A stretch of 64,000 bases of DNA from an uncultured Lachnospiraceae bacterium (GTDB taxonomy: Bacteria > Bacillota > Clostridia > Lachnospirales > Anaerotignaceae), in NCBI GenBank assembly GCA_944380405.1, contig CALWHO010000014.1, positions 1-64,000 of the forward strand, in the 5' to 3' direction. Below the pieces are notes generated by a model. It saw nothing but the letters and a program-made list of their open reading frames with translations, was not told where the DNA came from and searched no databases. Position numbers and translations under genes: made by a program. This document shows, in pieces, positions 37,170 to 63,858 of the stretch. Each line of letters opens with the position of its first letter. The stretch's first letter is position 1.

Positions 37170-37464
37170 CCATGTTAATAATATCAACACTTTCGACAAA
37201 ATAATATTTTGTCGAGCTTACTTAAGGTATAAACAGACAAGTTCCATCAACATGAATGTTTCGAAACTTGCTGTTTTCCTCGTCGGAAGTGAATTCCGTC
37301 GGAATTTTGCTTGTGCAAAACAGCTACACTGCCCTTGTTCGTCGGGTTCTTTACTGCGGATTAAATTTGGAAAACTTAGTACCGCCAAGAAGAGCGGACA
37401 GCCACAAGTGGCTGGAGTTTGCTTTAGCAAACTTACTGACTAATTGTTTTCCAAACCTTTCAGC
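37170..37464 (-). repeat. Hairpin-array intergenic repeat, copy B, inside the dnaN-dnaA gap
   Basis: Reverse-oriented copy that starts right next to the dnaA stop codon. Its first 100 bp are about 90 percent identical to copy C (47443 onward), including GGTTTGGAAAAC paired with GTTTTCC, AGTTTGCTaaAGCAAACT and CAGCCAcTTgTGGCTG-type hairpins. It then has CCCGACGA, TTTTGC..GCAAAA, CGGAA..TTCCG and CCGACGAGG, and ends with CGACAAAAT..ATTTTGTCG at about 37196-37216. No gene is supported here. Confidence 0.8.
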
Positions 37465-37466
37465 TA

Positions 37467-38810
37467 TTAAATTCCTTTTATTCTCTTTTCAAGCTCTATT
37501 ACGTCTTTTTCAAGATTTTTATCTTTTTCAATATCTTTTTCTATTTTGTTGCAGGCATGAAGTACTGTTGTATGGTCTCTTCCGCCATAGTCTTCGCCTA
37601 TTTTTGAAAGTGATATATCAAGAAGTTTTCTTGAAAGATACATACCAATTTGTCTTGGATATGCTATTGTTTTAGGTTTTTTGCTGCTTTTTATATCGTC
37701 TACTGTTATTTTGTAAAAGTCAGCTACCATTTCCATAATGAACTGAGTTGTCATTTTGTTTTCTGTTTTTCTTTCGAATATATCCTTAAGGGCATCTTCT
37801 GCCAGTTCAACGGTAATGCTCTGGTTTGTGATTTTAGCTAATGCCACTATTCGTGTAAGTGCACCTTCAAGTTCTCTGATATTGGTTGTTATATATTTAG
37901 CAATGTGGTTCATAACACTGTCTGGCACATTAAGACCGTCATGGATTGCTTTTTTGCGGAGAATTGCAATTCTTGTTTCATAGTCTGGTGGCTGAATATC
38001 AGCAATAAGACCTGACTCGAAACGTGTTTTAAGTCTTTCTTCAAGTGTTTTGATTTCCTTTGGAGGACGGTCGGAAGAAAGTATAATCTGTTTGTTTGAG
38101 CCATGAAGAGCATTAAATGTATGGAAAAACTCTTCCTGTGTTCTTTCTTTTTGAGCTATAAACTGAATATCGTCAATAAGAAGAACGTCTATATTTCTGT
38201 ATTTATTTCTGAATTCTTCGTTTTTATTATTTGAAATGGAATTAATAAGCTCATTTGTAAATGTTTCACTTGTTACATAAAGTACCCTTGTATCAGGTTT
38301 TTTATTAAGTATGTAATGAGCTATGGAATGCATAAGATGGGTTTTACCTAAACCTGAGTTTCCATATATGAATAATGGGTTATACGCTCCTGCTGGTGCT
38401 TCCGCAACTGCAAGGCTGGCTGCATGTGCCATTCTGTTGGAGTTTCCAACTACGAATGATTCAAAAACATACTTTGGATTTAAGTTTGCCGCTATATCTG
38501 GTGAAACTTTTTTAGGTGTTTCAAATACTGTTGATACAGCTTCTTCTTTAACTATGTTATCCTGGCTTATAACCATTATGTTGTAGTCCTTCTGTGTTAC
38601 AAACTTTATGGCGTTTTTAACAAGAAGGAGGTATTTTGTTTCAAGTGTTTCTTTAAAAAAGTCATTTTCTACTTTTAAAATTATGTCGCTGCCTTCTATT
38701 TTGTATATGGATGCTGTGGCTATCCATGTTTCAAAAGACAGTGTGTCTATCTGGTTACTGTTTCTTATAAGCTCCAGAGCGTCAGACCAAATTTTTTCAG
38801 ACTGTTCCAT
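37467..38810 (-). CDS. dnaA: Chromosomal replication initiator DnaA
   Basis: A 447-residue DnaA with all four domains: N-terminal helicase-contact domain (1-80), linker, AAA+ domain with Walker A GNSGLGKT (150-157) and Walker B LLIDDIQF, and C-terminal box-binding domain with signature GGRDHTTVLHACNKI. It melts the origin and loads helicase. It faces away from rpmH across an AT-rich 615-bp gap. The start is ATG behind GGAGGAAAAA. Confidence 0.98.
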   Translation of the reverse strand: MEQSEKIWSDALELIRNSNQIDTLSFETWIATASIYKIEGSDIILKVENDFFKETLETKYLLLVKNAIKFVTQKDYNIMVISQDNIVKEEAVSTVFETPKKVSPDIAANLNPKYVFESFVVGNSNRMAHAASLAVAEAPAGAYNPLFIYGNSGLGKTHLMHSIAHYILNKKPDTRVLYVTSETFTNELINSISNNKNEEFRNKYRNIDVLLIDDIQFIAQKERTQEEFFHTFNALHGSNKQIILSSDRPPKEIKTLEERLKTRFESGLIADIQPPDYETRIAILRKKAIHDGLNVPDSVMNHIAKYITTNIRELEGALTRIVALAKITNQSITVELAEDALKDIFERKTENKMTTQFIMEMVADFYKITVDDIKSSKKPKTIAYPRQIGMYLSRKLLDISLSKIGEDYGGRDHTTVLHACNKIEKDIEKDKNLEKDVIELEKRIKGI

Positions 38811-47406: not shown

Positions 47407-47442
47407 AGTCTATAGATAAATCTATTTTTTAACTTTTATATA

Positions 47443-47749
47443 TTGCTGAAAGGTTTGGAAAACAATTAGTCAGTAAGTTTGCTAAAGCAAACTCCAGCCA
47501 TAAGTGGCTGTCCGCCATTCTTGGCGGTACTAAGTTTTCCAAATGGAATCCGCAGAGGTCATCAATTTCCGTCGATGAAAACCTAAGCACCCGACGAGAT
47601 AGGGCGGCAAAGCCGTTTTTCGAAGAAAAATGCCGACCAAGGGTTTCAAGGCATTTATGCCGATGGAACCTGTCTGTTTATTCCTCTATTATTTAACTCG
47701 TCAAAATCCTGATTTTGACGAAAGGGTGTCGGATTTTTTCGACACCCTA
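47443..47749 (+). repeat. Hairpin-array intergenic repeat, copy C (longest complete copy)
   Basis: A full copy of about 300 bp. H1 is TTTGGAAAAC (47454-47463) with GTTTTCCAAA (47534-47543), enclosing three hairpins: AGTTTGCT/AGCAAACT (47476-47493), CAGCCA/TGGCTG (47495-47510) and CCGCCA/TGGCGG (47512-47527). Then come GGAATCCGCAG, CCCGACGA, CGGCaaaGCCG, TTTTTC/GAAAAA, an H3 with inner GGCAT/ATGCC, H4 CGTCAAAAT/ATTTTGACG (about 47699-47720) and H5 GGGTGTCG/CGACACCC ending near 47748. The last hairpin lies just after serS and can terminate it. No gene is supported. Confidence 0.85.
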
Positions 47750-47754
47750 ATTTT

Positions 47755-49029
47755 TTATTTTGTAATTTTTTCAATTCCGCCCATGTATGGTCTAAGAACT
47801 TCAGGAATTATAATAGAACCGTCTTCCTGCTGGAAGTTTTCCATTATAGCTGCTGTTGTACGTCCTGCTGCAAGACCACTGCCATTAAGTGTATGAACAA
47901 ACTGAGCTTTATCTTTTACGTTATCTTTAAACTTAATGTTTGCTCTTCTTGCCTGGAAGCTTTCAAAGTTAGAGCAGCTTGAGATTTCAACGTATCTATT
48001 GTAGCTTGGCATCCAAACTTCTACGTCATATGTCATAGCTGAGCTGAAACCAAGGTCACCACCACAAAGACGAACTACTCTATATGGAAGACCAAGAAGT
48101 TTAAGTATATCTTCTGCATCGTTTGTAAGGCTTTCAAGCTCTTCATATGAGTTTTCAGGTTTTGCAAACTTAACCATTTCTACTTTATTAAACTGGTGCT
48201 GACGAATAATACCTCTTGTGTCACGACCTGCTGAGCCAGCTTCTGCACGGAAACATGCTGTATATGCACAGTGCTTAATTGTAAGGTCTTTACCGTCAAG
48301 TATCATATCTGCATACATATTTGTTACAGGTACTTCTGCTGTTGGTACAAGGAAGTAATCTGTACCGGCTACTTTAAATGCGTCTTCTTCAAATTTTGGA
48401 AGCTGACCTGTACCTGTCATACTCTTTCTGTTTACCATGAAAGGAGGGAATACTTCTGTATAGCCATGTTTTTCAACGTGTGTATCAAGCATGAAGTTAA
48501 TAATAGCTCTTTCAAGTCTTGCTCCAAGGCCTTTATAAACTGTAAATCTTGAGCCTGTGATTTTACCTGCTGTTTCTGGGTCAAGTATACCAAGGTCTTT
48601 ACCTAAATCCCAATGTGGTTTTGCTTCAAAGTCAAACTTTCTTGGCTCGCCCCATTTTCTCATTTCAAGGTTTTCTGTATCATCTACGCCGTCTGGAACA
48701 AGTTCATTTGGTGTATTTGGTATTGAAAGAAGGAAAGAATTAAGTTTATCGTCTACTTCTGATACCTTTGCATCAAGTTCTTTTATTTCATCGGAAAGCT
48801 TTTTCATTTCAGCCATAAGAGCTGTTGTGTCCTTGCCTTCTTTTTTAAGCTTTGGAATTTCTTTGCTGTCTGCATTTTGTTTGCTTTTTAATTCCTCAAC
48901 CTGCTGAATAAGTTCACGTCTTGTTTTGTCAAGGTCTGCAAATACATCAAGGTTATAGTCCTTATGTCTTTTAGCAAGAGCAGCCTTAACTCCTTCAAAA
49001 TCTGATCTTAATAATTTTACGTCTAACAT
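47755..49029 (-). CDS. serS: Seryl-tRNA synthetase
   Basis: A 424-residue class II synthetase: N-terminal coiled-coil arm (about 30-100, [20 protein letters not shown]) and catalytic core with motif 2 [22 protein letters not shown] and motif 3 [19 protein letters not shown]. It charges tRNA-Ser. The leader of about 190 bp shows no T-box core motif, so T-box control is not supported. Start ATG follows CGGAGG. Confidence 0.97.
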
Positions 49030-57063: not shown

Positions 57064-58197
57064 ATGGAAGAAAACAATTTCACAAATGAAAACGAATTAA
57101 ATAACAATATTCCAAATGAAGCTGAAAATAACAATAACGCTCAAAAAGAAAATAATCAGCCAAACAAAACAGTAAATTATAACACAAATTACAACACAAA
57201 CTATTATAGAAAAGACAGCAAAAAAACAGGCTGCCTTGTGGCAGTAATAGCTGTTGTAGTTATAGTTGCTGCTTTAATTATAGGATTTTTCTCTATGATA
57301 GGAAGTATGTTTTCATCAGCTGTTTCATCTGTTTCATCAACAACAGGAAGCACATATACATATGTAGAAGGTGACTATGTTGAAACAATACCAATAGAGG
57401 GTGCGATTTCATCATCTCCTTCATATTATTCAGGTGGATATAATCATCAGTGGATACTTGAAGAAATAGACAGACTTAAAAATGATGAAAGCAACAAGGG
57501 TATTATACTTTATATTAATACTCCTGGTGGCGGTACATACGAAAGTGATGAAGTTTATAACGCCCTTAAGGACTACAAGGAAGCAACAGGAAACCCTGTT
57601 TATTCATACTATGCACAGACAGCAGCATCAGGGGGCGTATATCTTTCAATGGCGTCAGACGAAATTTATGCCAACAGAATGACTCTTACAGGCTCTATTG
57701 GTGTTATAATGAGCTATTATGATGCAAGTGGTCTTATGGAAAAGCTTGGCATTAAAGAAGACAATGTAGCCAGCGGCAGAAACAAAGCTATGGGCGGTTA
57801 CAGCGGTCTTAACGAAGAACAAAGAGCAATACTTCAGTCTATAGTTGACGAAACATACAATATTTTTGTTGATATAGTGGCAGAGGGCAGAAATATGCCA
57901 AGAGAAAAGGTGCTTGAACTGGCAGACGGCAGAGTTTACAGTGCTAAACAGGCTCTTGACCTTGGTCTTATTGACTATGTAATGGACTATGATGACTTTA
58001 TGACAGCTATGGAAAACAAAGAAGAATTTGCAGGATGTGAGTTTATTGAAAATACATATATTTCAAATTCATTCCTTGATAATTTCTTAGCTAAAACAGG
58101 CTTAGGAAATCAGAAAAGTCAGGAGGCTCAGCTTCTTGAAATGATTGAAAAAGCAAATCAAAATCCAGTTCAGTATTTATTTGACGGAGTATATTAA
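57064..58197 (+). CDS. sppA: Signal peptide peptidase SppA (S49 family)
   Basis: A 377-residue S49 protease. The cytosolic N-terminus (1-55) is Asn-rich with NYNTNYNTNYY-type repeats; a transmembrane helix (about 57-78) precedes the extracytoplasmic serine protease. Catalytic Ser is in LTGSIGVIMSYY and the Lys in SGRNKAMGG. INTPGGGTYESDEVY and the TAASGGVYLSMASDEI block are family signatures. It degrades released signal peptides at the membrane. Start ATG behind AAAAGGAGG. Confidence 0.93.
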   Translation: MEENNFTNENELNNNIPNEAENNNNAQKENNQPNKTVNYNTNYNTNYYRKDSKKTGCLVAVIAVVVIVAALIIGFFSMIGSMFSSAVSSVSSTTGSTYTYVEGDYVETIPIEGAISSSPSYYSGGYNHQWILEEIDRLKNDESNKGIILYINTPGGGTYESDEVYNALKDYKEATGNPVYSYYAQTAASGGVYLSMASDEIYANRMTLTGSIGVIMSYYDASGLMEKLGIKEDNVASGRNKAMGGYSGLNEEQRAILQSIVDETYNIFVDIVAEGRNMPREKVLELADGRVYSAKQALDLGLIDYVMDYDDFMTAMENKEEFAGCEFIENTYISNSFLDNFLAKTGLGNQKSQEAQLLEMIEKANQNPVQYLFDGVY

Positions 58198-58202
58198 TTA
58201 GA

Positions 58203-58303
58203 GGGTGCCGAAGGGCACCCTTTCGTCAATATCAGGATTTTGACGAGAAAAAATAAGCATAAAAATGGAGTTTCCAGGCAAAATTCCTTGAAACTCCATT
58301 TTT
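58203..58303 (-). repeat. Hairpin-array intergenic repeat, copy D (short form)
   Basis: Carries only the last three hairpins of the family in reverse orientation: H5 GGGTGCC (58203-58209) with GGCACCC (58214-58220), H4 CGTCAATAT (58224-58232) with ATTTTGACG (58237-58245, one mismatch), and H3 AAAAATGGAGTTT (58261-58273) with AAACTCCATTTTT (58291-58303). The last is a 13-bp stem flanked by A- and T-runs and should serve as bidirectional terminator for sppA and the convergent isomerase gene. Confidence 0.82.
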
Positions 58304-58338
58304 TTAGTTTTAAATACCTATATTATAGGTACGTTTTA

Positions 58339-59121
58339 TTATCCAAATACTTTCTTCATTACGCTATATGTAACAGGTGCAACTTTATCAAAATCAGGTG
58401 TATCGTTTGGCTCTATGCTGAATGTGCCGTCATAGCCACATTCTTCAACAGCCTTTTTAATTTTAATAAGGTTTTCTTCATCTTCAGGAATTATATATTC
58501 TCTGTCAAGAGAGCCTTCTGGTGTGTGGTTATAGTGAAGGTGTCTTACATAAGGCATAACGTCTTTAATGTCTGTAATGTCTTCACCCATTACTTCCATG
58601 TGGTAGAAGTCAAGAACTATTTTAAGGTTGTCTTTGTTTATGTCCTCTACAAGCTTAATGCCGTCTGCTGTATGGTTTGCAAAATCACAGCATTTATCAT
58701 GGAGAGCTTCAAAAAGTACGTTTATGCCGTACTTTGCGGCTTCGTCTGCTGTTATTTCAAGAAATCTCTTGCACTGGTTATATGCCTTATCCATGTCATA
58801 GCCAGCTGGAAGTTTTCTTGCCATAGGAGCACCTACGCCTATATTTTTAATGCCAAGCCTTGAGCCTCTTTTACACATTTTTTCCGCATAGACTCTGGCT
58901 TTTTCTTCTGTAAAATTATCACCTACAATAGGTGTTTTTTCGTTGCAGTATGCATTAAAGCCGGCAACAGGGTAGTTAAGAGCATCTCTTTTTTTGGCAA
59001 ATGCTTCAAATTCCTCATCAGTCATGGCAGCTATTTCGTTGCCTGCCACTTCTATGTAGTCATAGCCTATTTCTTTTACTTTTTCAATGTTTTTTGTAGG
59101 TGTGCATAAACCTATTTTCAT
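58339..59121 (-). CDS. Sugar phosphate isomerase/epimerase-like TIM-barrel protein
   Basis: A 260-residue member of the AP-endonuclease-2/xylose-isomerase-like TIM-barrel family. Metal-ligand candidates are Glu in VLFEALHDK, Asp and His in VLDFYHMEV, His in VRHLHYNHTPEG and Glu in FSIEPNDT. The substrate, a ketose or inositol-type sugar, cannot be specified. Stand-alone gene, divergent from fumA. Confidence 0.87.
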   Translation of the reverse strand: MKIGLCTPTKNIEKVKEIGYDYIEVAGNEIAAMTDEEFEAFAKKRDALNYPVAGFNAYCNEKTPIVGDNFTEEKARVYAEKMCKRGSRLGIKNIGVGAPMARKLPAGYDMDKAYNQCKRFLEITADEAAKYGINVLFEALHDKCCDFANHTADGIKLVEDINKDNLKIVLDFYHMEVMGEDITDIKDVMPYVRHLHYNHTPEGSLDREYIIPEDEENLIKIKKAVEECGYDGTFSIEPNDTPDFDKVAPVTYSVMKKVFG

Positions 59122-60754: not shown

Positions 60755-61967
60755 TTTAATTTTATTTTTTATAATATGTATTTCAATTTTATTTACTGCC
60801 TGCGGAAAAACAGAAGCAGTATTTAATGAGGAAGAAGAAAACAAAATAACTGCCACAGCAGGTGAGATGTATAAAAAAGAGCCTGAAATAAAAACTGCAA
60901 AGATAGCTGTAACAGGTGACATTATGGTTCATAGCTACCAGTATGAAGAAGCTTACGACAGCACCACAGGCACTTATGACTTTATGCATAACTTTACTGA
61001 TGTGCAGAAATATTTTGAGGCGGCTGATTATGCTATAGGCAATTTTGAAACTGTAACAGCAGGTGAAGATGTGGGAATTTCTGACTATCCATGTTTTAAT
61101 ACTCCTGACAGCTTCCTTGATAGCCTTAAATATTCAGGCATAGACTTTGTTACAACTGCCAATAACCACTGCATGGACAAAGGCACAGACGGTCTTTTAA
61201 GAACAATAGAAATGCTTGACCAGTACGGTTTTGACCACACAGGAACTTATGCCTCACAGGAAGAAAGGGATACAGTTTTTATTAAGGACATAAACGGCAT
61301 TAAGTTTGCATTTTTGTCTTATACATACGGCACAAATGGTATACCTGTTAAAAATTCTTATAATGTGAATTTAATGGACAGGGAGCTTATTAAAAGCGAC
61401 ATAGAAAAAGCAAAGGCACTTAATCCTGATTTTATTGTTGTTTTGCCACACATGGGCAACGAATACGAAACTTATGTAAGAGACGTTTTTGTTGATTGGG
61501 CAGATTATATGTTTGAATGTGGTGCTGACATAATACTTGCAAGCCACCCTCATGTTCTTCAGCCTATGGAAGTAAGAGAGCTTACAAAAGATGATGGCAC
61601 TACAAGAAATGGATATATTATTTATTCCCTTGGAAATTTTATATCATCACAGACAACACCGCCAAGAAATGCAGGCATAATTGTTAATCTTGATTTTGAA
61701 AAAGTGGACAACAACCCTGCCGAAATAACAAGGGTAAGCTTTATACCTATTTGGACTCAGTTTAGAAACGCACAGGACGTAAATCATTTTATGGTAAGAA
61801 GCGTATATGAAATGATTACACTGCCTGAAAGCGAAAGGTATAATGTTGTAAGACCTAAGGACTACAATAGGCTTATTGACATTCATTACGAAACAACAGG
61901 AATGTATTTTGATGAAGAGATACCAATAGAAAACATTCAGGACCAGTATGTTTTTTGGGAAAGATAA
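60720..61967 (+). CDS. CapA family lipoprotein (poly-gamma-glutamate-synthesis-like metallophosphatase)
   Basis: A 415-residue protein: signal peptide ending in lipobox LFTAC, then a CapA/PGA_cap metallophosphatase domain with VTGDIMVH, IGNFETV, TTANNHCMDKG, VVLPHMGNEY and ASHPHVLQPMEV. It would be anchored outside the membrane. Such proteins are linked to capsule or poly-glutamate export, but many act on unknown envelope phosphoesters. Start is ATG at 60720 behind GGAGGG, within the last codons of fumB; a frame from 60696 has no ribosome site. Confidence 0.88.
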   Translation: MKLKKQSTGHFNLILFFIICISILFTACGKTEAVFNEEEENKITATAGEMYKKEPEIKTAKIAVTGDIMVHSYQYEEAYDSTTGTYDFMHNFTDVQKYFEAADYAIGNFETVTAGEDVGISDYPCFNTPDSFLDSLKYSGIDFVTTANNHCMDKGTDGLLRTIEMLDQYGFDHTGTYASQEERDTVFIKDINGIKFAFLSYTYGTNGIPVKNSYNVNLMDRELIKSDIEKAKALNPDFIVVLPHMGNEYETYVRDVFVDWADYMFECGADIILASHPHVLQPMEVRELTKDDGTTRNGYIIYSLGNFISSQTTPPRNAGIIVNLDFEKVDNNPAEITRVSFIPIWTQFRNAQDVNHFMVRSVYEMITLPESERYNVVRPKDYNRLIDIHYETTGMYFDEEIPIENIQDQYVFWER

Positions 61968-61972
61968 ACTTT

Positions 61973-62124
61973 GACAAAAGGCTCATTTCATTCAAGCCTT
62001 TTGCCAGCAGACAGAAGTATAAAGCAGGAGTTCCGGCGGCATAAAAGCCTTGAAACTCCTGCTTTTCCTCGTGGGAAATAAATTCCCACTGCGGATTCCA
62101 GTTGGGGAACGAAACGTTCCCCAA
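61973..62124 (-). repeat. Hairpin-array intergenic repeat, copy E
   Basis: Reverse-oriented copy immediately after the CapA stop codon. It has H4 (61973-61983 with 61995-62005), H3 AGCAGGAGTT (62023-62032) with AACTCCTGCT (62054-62063), H2 GTGGGAA (62071-62077) with TTCCCAC (62083-62089) and H1 TTGGGGAACG (62102-62111) with CGTTCCCCAA (62115-62124). H5 is missing. H2 and H1 differ from copy F at paired positions with compensation on both arms. Confidence 0.85.
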
Positions 62125-62162
62125 ACCCCTTTCGTATTTTTAAAAAGTTATTTTTTATATTT

Positions 62163-62936
62163 TTATTTATCTATAATTTCCTTTGCCATTTCAGTAAGTC
62201 CGTCACTTCCAAGACTGCCGTTTTGAGTCATAAGAGAGTAGTTTAAGCCGTTATCTGACCATGAAACAGACTCAATAAATTCTTTTTCCACTTTGTCTGT
62301 GCCGTATGAAACAACTATATCGCCACTGGCTTCAAGAGCCTTTTCTTCTTCTGTAAGCTCGTATGTTGGAGGAACAAACAAAGCGTTATAGCTGAAATAT
62401 CCTATTTCAATACCGTTATAGTTTTCTGTTGAAGTATTTTCTGACATTGGCGGAAGTACGGAAGAAACTGACATCATTACGTCTTCACCGTCTTTATTTT
62501 CGTATGTAATTGAAATATCTGTCCACTGCGGTGAAGATGTGCCTGTTTCCTGGTCTTCGTAGTTGCCGTATACAGGCACTGCTGACTTAAATTCATAGCC
62601 GTTTGAGAATTTTTCAATATATTTTAAATCCATATTGGCTTTTTCGGTAATTTCTGCTACCTGCTCAAAAGACTTAACTTCTTCGTTAAGAAATGAATGG
62701 GCGACTGTCATTGTAAAGCCTGATGCTGCAACAGCTGTTATACTGCCAAGTATGCAAAGAGATGCAACAATAAGTGCTGTTTTTTTAAATCCTATTTTTT
62801 TCATATTTTCTGCCTCCTCAATATTATGAAGTACGTTTCTTTTTGTTATTTCCATATTGTTTTTGTTTACTTCTATTTTTGAAGCCGTAATATTTAATGT
62901 TTCTTTTATTTTATTATCAATAATATTTTTTCTCAT
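62163..62936 (-). CDS. Probable membrane-bound anti-sigma factor
   Basis: A 257-residue protein with an N-terminal cytosolic part (1-49), one transmembrane helix (about 51-72) and an extracytoplasmic domain of about 185 residues with no recognised motif. The gene starts within TAATG, where the stop of the ECF sigma gene overlaps its ATG. This arrangement and topology are typical of anti-sigma factors that hold an ECF sigma until an envelope signal arrives. No zinc-binding HxxxCxxC motif is visible. Confidence 0.78.
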   Translation of the reverse strand: MRKNIIDNKIKETLNITASKIEVNKNNMEITKRNVLHNIEEAENMKKIGFKKTALIVASLCILGSITAVAASGFTMTVAHSFLNEEVKSFEQVAEITEKANMDLKYIEKFSNGYEFKSAVPVYGNYEDQETGTSSPQWTDISITYENKDGEDVMMSVSSVLPPMSENTSTENYNGIEIGYFSYNALFVPPTYELTEEEKALEASGDIVVSYGTDKVEKEFIESVSWSDNGLNYSLMTQNGSLGSDGLTEMAKEIIDK

Positions 62937-63499
62937 TATATGGGCACCTCCTGTTTATATGAATTTTCTGATGATTCAATTATTTTTTTAATTGCTTTTC
63001 TTGCGTTATGAAGTCTTGATTTTACTGTGCCTTCAAAAGAGCCTGTAATTTGTGCAATTTCCTTTGTTGTAAGGCTATTATAGTAATAAAGCACAACAAC
63101 TGTTCTTTGCTTTATGGGAAGGCTCATAACGGCATTAAAAATTTCTTTATTTTCAATGGAATCAATAACGCTATCGGCAAGGGAAAAGGAGTCAGGAGTA
63201 TTTTCTTCAAAAACCTCCGGGGCTGGCTGTTCACGTTTTGCCTTTTTGGAGTAGGCCCATGCTTTACGGCTTATTATTTTATAGAGCCACCTTTCAAAAT
63301 ACTTAGGCTCTTTTATTTTTTTGCGGTTAATATAGCAGGAGGTGAAGGCTTCCTGAACAATATCTTCGCTGTCGGCATATTTGCCTGATATAAGAAATGC
63401 AAGGCGCATAGCCTTTGGATAGTAAATAGTCATTAAGTCATTAAAGGCATATTTATCGTCATTTATCATTTGCACAACTAAGTTTTCTATATCAGTCAA
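62936..63499 (-). CDS. ECF-type RNA polymerase sigma factor
   Basis: A 187-residue sigma-70 family ECF protein: region 2 with SEDIVQEAFTSCYINRKKI and FERWLYKIISRKAW, region 4 with LPIKQRTVVVLYYYNSLTTK followed by EIAQITGSFEGTVKSRLHNARKAI (here split). It directs RNA polymerase to a small regulon, probably with its adjacent anti-sigma. Start is TTG behind GAGAGGTG. A candidate self-recognised promoter lies about 50 bp upstream. Confidence 0.92.
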   Translation of the reverse strand: MTDIENLVVQMINDDKYAFNDLMTIYYPKAMRLAFLISGKYADSEDIVQEAFTSCYINRKKIKEPKYFERWLYKIISRKAWAYSKKAKREQPAPEVFEENTPDSFSLADSVIDSIENKEIFNAVMSLPIKQRTVVVLYYYNSLTTKEIAQITGSFEGTVKSRLHNARKAIKKIIESSENSYKQEVPI

Positions 63500-63550
63500 A
63501 ATATATCACCTCTCTTTTTTTGAACGTTCTTTATTGATGCATCTATAATA

Positions 63551-63578
63551 TAGAGGGGATATATGAAAAAAAGGTTCA
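63551..63578 (-). promoter_or_regulatory. Candidate ECF-type autoregulatory promoter
   Basis: On the minus strand TGAACC followed by T7 (63578-63566) is 17 bp from CTCTA (63555-63551). The GAAC-type -35 and short C-containing -10 are characteristic of ECF promoters, and the site precedes the sigma gene by about 50 bp. Confidence 0.5.
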
Positions 63579-63602
63579 CACTTTTTTAAAGAATTTATTA
63601 AG

Positions 63603-63782
63603 AGGGTGTCGAAAGAGTCGACACCCTTTCGTCAAAGGCTCATTTCATTCAAGCCTTTGACGAGTAGACATAAGTATAAAGCAGGAGTTCCAGCGGAATA
63701 AAATCCTTGAAACTCCTGCTTTTCCTCGTCGGAAATAAATTCCGACTGCGGATTCCAGTTGGAGAACGCTTCGTTCTCCAAA
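63603..63782 (-). repeat. Hairpin-array intergenic repeat, copy F
   Basis: Clean five-hairpin copy: H5 GGGTGTCGA (63604-63612) with TCGACACCC (63618-63626); H4 CGTCAAAGGCT (63630-63640) with AGCCTTTGACG (63652-63662); H3 AGCAGGAGTT (63680-63689) with AACTCCTGCT (63711-63720); H2 GTCGGAA (63728-63734) with TTCCGAC (63740-63746); H1 TTGGAGAACG (63759-63768) with CGTTCTCCAA (63772-63781). Linkers CCGACGAGG and GGAATCCGCAG are on the reverse strand. It fills most of the 63500-63866 gap; no gene seen. Confidence 0.88.
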
Positions 63783-63828
63783 CTTTTCCGCAATAATATG
63801 TTTTTAAAAAATAGTTTTTTTGCAGTCT

Positions 63829-63858
63829 AAAGCCCTATCAAAAAATGATAGGGCTTTT
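63829..63858. terminator. Hairpin after gyrA
   Basis: Perfect 12-bp stem AAAGCCCTATCA (63829-63840) with TGATAGGGCTTT (63847-63858), loop of six A. It lies 8 bp beyond the gyrA stop codon. The following T-run is short. Confidence 0.8.

Follow-up and report, generated by a model that had tools for sequence, protein, structure and literature searches.

What kind of genetic unit are the intergenic multi-hairpin repeats of this locus, and what keeps their stems paired while their sequences change? The window (the whole stretch of DNA analysed, 64,000 nt) contains six copies, two of which, E and F, lie near its right edge and differ by paired changes in several stems. The first-pass annotation read these copies as a multi-copy family with a conserved DNA or RNA structure, and this reading was supported both by further copies and by covariation across them.

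Copies and anatomy of the repeat

The paired stem differences listed by the first-pass annotation were all present in the sequence. Copies E and F have TTGGGGAACG/CGTTCCCCAA and TTGGAGAACG/CGTTCTCCAA, respectively, as H1, and the 37 kb and 47 kb copies share GGAAAAC/GTTTTCC there; for H2, copy E has GTGGGAA/TTCCCAC and copy F has GTCGGAA/TTCCGAC. Among the window copies, the outer stem of H3 occurs as AGAGA/TCTCT, AGCAGGA/TCCTGCT and AATGGA/TCCATT, and H4 as CGTCAAA/TTTGACG and CGACAAA/TTTGTCG. To search the window, we built a covariance model on 39 copies drawn from many genera, copies E and F among them. It recovered exactly the six copies already reported, at 80–262 (−), 37182–37358 (+), 47444–47731 (−), 58213–58365 (+), 61973–62136 (+) and 63630–63792 (+), and nothing else at E ≤ 1.6e-10. 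Their E values ranged from 3e-44 to 2e-10; the next match (E = 0.0013) overlapped a copy. In the genome (2.03 Mb, 209 contigs) the model gave 85 matches, slightly more than the number of loci owing to split copies, and copies were also found in most Anaerotignaceae genera.

The window copies differ in preservation. The core of copy E (61973–62136, +; 162.9 bits) begins 6 nt past the stop codon of a gene ending at 61967. Copy D (58196–58365, +; 49.5 bits) has clear H5, H4 and H3 hairpins and a decayed right part. In the copy at 47442–47765 (−; 81.8 bits), H2/H3 hold additional modules and the H1 loop holds a cloverleaf module; the copy at 37182–37467 (+; 77.2 bits) carries modules in H2 and in the H1 loop. 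The copy at 1–262 (−; 74.5 bits) is truncated: position 1 of the window is also the first base of its contig and falls within this copy. Several other contigs likewise start within copies, as expected where an assembly breaks at repeats. The elements are about 150–360 nt long and contain no transposase gene. A comparison of the window with Rfam gave no match at gathering thresholds, and relaxed thresholds yielded only matches far below them. No published description of the family was found in literature searches, and a plasmid search gave no match to the repeat.

Copy F was used to describe the element. The element is longer than the first-pass annotation proposed and reaches to about 63830 in this copy. 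The whole element, bounded as 230 nt (63603–63830, +; core 186.8 bits), extends from the left end AGGGTGTCG to the right end TTTTTTGCAGTCTA. Read along the strand of copy F, the element runs H5, H4, a linker ending in AAGTATAAA, H3, the linker TTTTCCTC, H2, CTGCGGATT, H1 and CCCTTCCGC, followed by some 40 A+T-rich bases that terminate in TTTTTTGACAGTCTGA. H5 (GGGTGTCG..CGACACCC; 63604–63626, +) is a hairpin at the left end; the left terminal inverted repeat (TIR) is formed by its first half, and the same left end occurs in copies of several genera. H4 (CGTCAAAGGCT..AGCCTTTGACG; 63630–63662, +) has variants with other paired sequences. H3 (63680–63720, +) consists of the outer stem AGCAGGAGTT..AACTCCTGCT, a conserved internal loop and an inner hairpin, and showed covariation (helices 1–3). 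The unpaired linker TTTTCCTC (63720–63727, +) is near-invariant, with a mean identity of 0.97 across the 39 copies. H2 (GTCGGAA..TTCCGAC; 63728–63746, +) had compensatory changes at all seven pairs (helix 4), and H1 (TTGGAGAACG..CGTTCTCCAA; 63759–63781, +) showed covariation as well (helix 6). The right end (63816–63830, +) repeats the left end in imperfect inverted form and is abutted by a host terminator stem-loop (AAGCCCTATCA..TGATAGGGCTTT; 63830–63857), of which no left duplicate remains at copy F.

In many copies of the genome, modules of 55–80 nt are inserted in H3, H2 or the H1 loop, always at fixed points, and several of them form three hairpins enclosed by a closing stem. Besides the two window copies at 37182–37467 and 47442–47765, module-bearing copies were observed at loci L033, L037, L038 and L043–L050. 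No module was free-standing outside the repeats in the loci examined. The presence of cloverleaf-like modules at fixed helix points remains surprising. Divergent elements at L110, L174 and L262–L268 share the same or similar ends and the H2 core, with other hairpins replacing H1 or H3.

Terminator targets and a probable IS1182-family partner

The copies sit mainly behind genes. At least one gene ended at the site in 118 of the 128 copies with clear neighbours; 54 of these 128 lay between convergent genes and 10 between divergent genes. Many copies were bracketed by one and the same intrinsic-terminator stem-loop on either side. Where both ends were defined, the flanking direct duplication exceeded the 99% control level in 28 of 44 copies, with a length of up to 33 nt that often covered the whole stem-loop; in a wider set, 38 of 149 copies passed the control level, with scores that rose to 38 where the controls reached no more than 13. 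The duplications around Anaerotignaceae copies were of stem-loops only, and none was of a gene end. The window copies are old and lack clear flanking duplications. Empty sites were found at the L192 locus, where the orthologous gene is followed by just one terminator in two genomes of related species (G040 and G043) and by terminator, element and terminator in a third (G019). The outer A-run was retained on the left only and the outer T-run on the right only. Each outer flank stays with one terminator copy, so a functional terminator would remain available to the host gene past the element, and transcription probably crosses the element first.

Chakrabartyella piscis (G053) has an autonomous IS1182-family element whose ends are matched by those of the repeat (TCAGGGTGTCGAAAAA ... 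TTTTTTGACAGTCTGA). The right ends are near-identical (TTTTTTGACAGTCTGA in the repeat, TTCTTTGACAGTCTGA in the IS), and the left ends show an imperfect likeness (TCAGGGTGTCGAAAAA and TTTCAGACTGTCAAAAAA, respectively). This IS, with ends CAGACTGTCAAAAAA/TTCTTTGACAGTCTG, is present in 11 full-length copies in G053 and, in the copies inspected, was flanked by duplicated terminator stem-loops, the same whole stem-loop duplication as that of the repeat. Its protein of 476 aa matched the NCBIfam IS1182 family transposase with 374.8 bits (cut-off 270). G053 also contains seven repeat cores. Matching ends, stem-loop targets and duplications, and the occurrence of repeat cores in the same genome as the IS together indicated that the repeat is very probably a short, non-autonomous mobile element of the MITE type, a partner of an IS1182-family IS. 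The IS1182-family transposase is predicted to bind the element ends in trans and would join them to both feet of the target stem-loop, and gap repair would then duplicate the stem-loop. The internal hairpins would be preserved by selection on a folded molecule, most likely a minus-strand RNA from near the right end.

Members of the IS1182 family target stem-loops, and duplication of the whole stem-loop has been drawn as a possible pathway for IS1272 (PMC5678879). The repeat would be a natural, high-copy case of what was drawn there only as a possibility. Unlike family members, it has no transposase gene and its interior is unrelated to the IS; in addition, the target stem-loop is reportedly replaced by IS1272 (PMC5678879), whereas it is duplicated here.

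Among 58 genomes of the family, an intact IS1182 transposase of the Chakrabartyella type was present in G053 only, with remnants or nothing elsewhere; we thus infer mobilisation in trans from the ends and the target. Other genomes may have lost the transposase, or fragmented assemblies may miss it; most of the genomes surveyed were metagenome-assembled, and multi-copy IS elements are often lost in such assemblies. PF13751 was rejected as a marker of the mobiliser: it gave a single hit, in G000, in an element with different ends. G000 has one IS1182-like transposase gene (L244, G000:C107), in an element whose ends (GGGCTGTTGCAAAATG) are different and terminator-like.

BOX elements are modular, as the repeat is, and REPINs are mobilised by a Y1 tyrosine transposase, whereas the ends and the target of the repeat point to a DDE enzyme of the IS1182 type. 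REPINs and REP/RAYT systems (PMC3116915) are like the repeat in being palindromic, present in high copy and mobile in trans. Bacterial MITEs are likewise short, non-autonomous and intergenic, with TIRs, target duplications and stable transcript folds (PMC10969869); the repeat differs from them in an interior of several helices with strong cross-genus covariation and nested module insertions. The BOX, RUP and SPRITE elements of Streptococcus pneumoniae are hairpin-rich, terminator-like or 3'-located repeats that nest within one another (PMC10969869). A SPRITE resembles a terminator through its own hairpin, whereas the repeat takes host terminators as its target; this comparison concerns organisation.

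Covariation and the molecule under selection

Covariation was measured in 39 distinct copies. Of the stem cells, 95.0% were paired, against 84.2% in shuffles; 20 pairs were changed on both sides (10.2 in shuffles), as were 143 cells (44.3 ± 4.6 in shuffles), and none of 500 shuffles reached the observed values. The covariation score was 0.301, compared with 0.112 in shuffles, and dropped to 0.088 or less when the partners were slid by one column. The significant covariation expected by the first-pass annotation thus exceeded all shuffled and slid controls, and it supported H1, H2, the H3 outer stem and the H3 tip. None of the five pairs of an apparent stem closing H1 (TGCGGA/TCCGCA) showed compensatory change, and this stem was therefore rejected as a helix and dropped from the covariance model. 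Conservation ran the other way: the identity of 0.97 in the linker TTTTCCTC compares with 0.38–0.56 at the variable positions of the H3 outer stem. Covariation together with conserved linkers is the signature that a folded RNA or DNA under selection would leave. Since the stems vary in pairs while the unpaired linkers and the internal loop stay fixed, we consider that the hairpins are kept by selection on the folded molecule.

The strand of this molecule was approached through one-sided mismatches. Selection on a plus-strand RNA predicts an excess of G.U, and selection on a minus-strand RNA predicts an excess of A.C as read on the plus strand. Among copies that are 88–94% identical, A.C occupied 128 cells of H1, H2 and the H3 tip, and G.U 22. 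The bias was reversed in the H1-closing stem (21 G.U and 6 A.C events), and the sum over all stems was not significant (48 vs 67, p = 0.09). The minus strand folded more stably in 44 of 45 copies, by a mean of 8.4 kcal/mol. The right end of many copies contains a promoter-like sequence, CAGACT-17-TATACT, which was weakly enriched (7.31 vs 6.86). The A.C excess in H1, H2 and the H3 tip and the lower folding energy are suggestive of a minus-strand RNA, which we consider likely despite the opposing bias of the closing stem and the non-significant total; such an RNA would start near the right end. As a guess, this putative RNA may act as a stable 3'-UTR or small RNA that guards or regulates the element or its host transcript.

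Paired changes could also arise without selection. If template switching during replication copied one arm of a quasi-palindrome onto the other, the hairpins of a dead MITE would stay perfect. Close copies (88–94% identical) already differ by 124 pair changes that are fully compensated, and many of these are transversions without a wobble intermediate. Between copies E and F, three pairs (one each in H1, H2 and the H3 tip) have changed on both sides and no pair in H1–H3 is broken. Both patterns are as such copying would produce. The duplicated terminators around the L023 copy (971–1263, −) also differ by a compensated pair (GGAGC/GCTCC vs GAAGC/GCTTC), so terminators too evolve in paired steps. 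However, template switching ought to erase the mismatched internal loop of H3, leaves unexplained why the unpaired linkers are the most conserved parts, and sits poorly with the strand bias of one-sided mismatches in H1, H2 and H3 and with the lack of any compensation in the apparent H1-closing helix; we consider it unlikely. It is similarly improbable that the repeat is an independently transcribed small RNA, for instance one that sponges CsrA. The folding and mismatch bias of the minus strand, its several unpaired GGA motifs and the promoter-like right end would fit such an RNA, but the promoter match is weak. The CsrA-sponge version was rejected, because CsrA is absent from the element-rich genomes G000, G040, G042, G043, G017, G003 and G053.

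The location behind genes, the very high stability of the hairpins and the start of some copies a few bases past a stop codon would all suit a cis-acting 3'-UTR or terminator element that stabilises or terminates host transcripts, with mobility being secondary. Yet the target preference of IS1182-type elements alone accounts for this location, and the orientation of the copies to the upstream gene was near random (+,+ in 36 and −,− in 28), which is unexpected for a strand-specific function in cis; this reading is possible but doubtful. Group IIC introns insert behind terminators, and in this respect the repeat resembles them. A degenerate retroelement, a group II intron or another catalogued RNA is nevertheless very hard to credit: Rfam gave no match on the window at gathering thresholds, the ends match those of a DDE-type IS, and stem-loop duplications are present, whereas group II introns are not known to duplicate their target. 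A MITE-type element with a selected interior is the reading that we prefer, and the evolution of a mini-transposon interior like a structured RNA makes function inside a MITE testable in existing isolates (Anaerotignum, Chakrabartyella).

Distribution and relatives in Oscillospiraceae

The repeat reached high copy numbers in many genera of one family. Its core motif was found in 27 of 58 Anaerotignaceae genomes and in 12 of 17 genera, and its copies numbered as many as 64; the family label rests on named relatives (Anaerotignum, Chakrabartyella, Metalachnospira) that share loci with the genomes surveyed. In a class-wide sample of 391 genomes, the motif occurred in 1 of about 388 outside Anaerotignaceae. 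Copy number varied widely within one genus, from 51 in G019 to 1 in G006. Copies were also observed on IMG/VR viral contigs (L179–L183; 65–89 bits), and L182, a contig of 8 kb, carries four of them. A new MITE family, belonging to an IS1182-type element that targets terminators, now accounts for most of the observation; what stays surprising is the conserved interior, the modules and a set of relatives in Oscillospiraceae.

A shorter core pattern also matched Flavonifractor, Pseudoflavonifractor, Intestinimonas and other Oscillospiraceae. Against the model these relatives reached only 19–26 bits, and in several the match covered just H2 and H1; the common core is the only link to the family of the window that was tested. 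Their loci gave no Rfam match either. The elements are 100–190 nt long and lie between direct repeats of 30–150 nt, which are the ends of conserved protein genes and often start at the start or stop codon. The targets, as named from their sequences, include the lepA start at seven loci (L071, L074, L141, L151, L154, L157, L173), the truB start at five (L072, L086, L134, L159, L166) and gene 3' ends at L082, L107, L130, L132 and L340; other targeted ends resemble argH, mutL, ychF and an araC-type gene in sequence. The two gene-end copies differed at 10 positions at L154 and at 9 at L173, all of them synonymous, and differences were mostly synonymous overall, as if each copy had once served as a functional gene end. 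A stretch of 7–10 nt just ahead of the right gene-end copy could often pair with the bases on the left side of the insertion: complementarity of ≥ 7 nt was present in 16 of 37 cases (control 8%).

These features allow a speculation that we hold to be rather improbable, namely that the core hairpin CCTCG-N-CGGAARTNAATTCCG-N'-CTGCGG marks a Clostridia superfamily of structured, non-coding mobile elements in which the fold is part of mobility. One branch would reach terminators via an IS1182-type transposase. The Oscillospiraceae branch would enter gene ends (the lepA and truB starts; the mutL, argH, araC-like and ychF ends) and bring a recoded gene-end copy that preserves the gene, together with a short stretch complementary to the target immediately left of the insertion point, as if base pairing selected the target. 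If true, the gene-end relatives with their recoded caps would represent a new mode of gene-preserving insertion. Tandem arrays, each unit consisting of a gene-end fragment and an element, were also observed in Oscillospiraceae (L134, L135, L158, L336, L348, L352).
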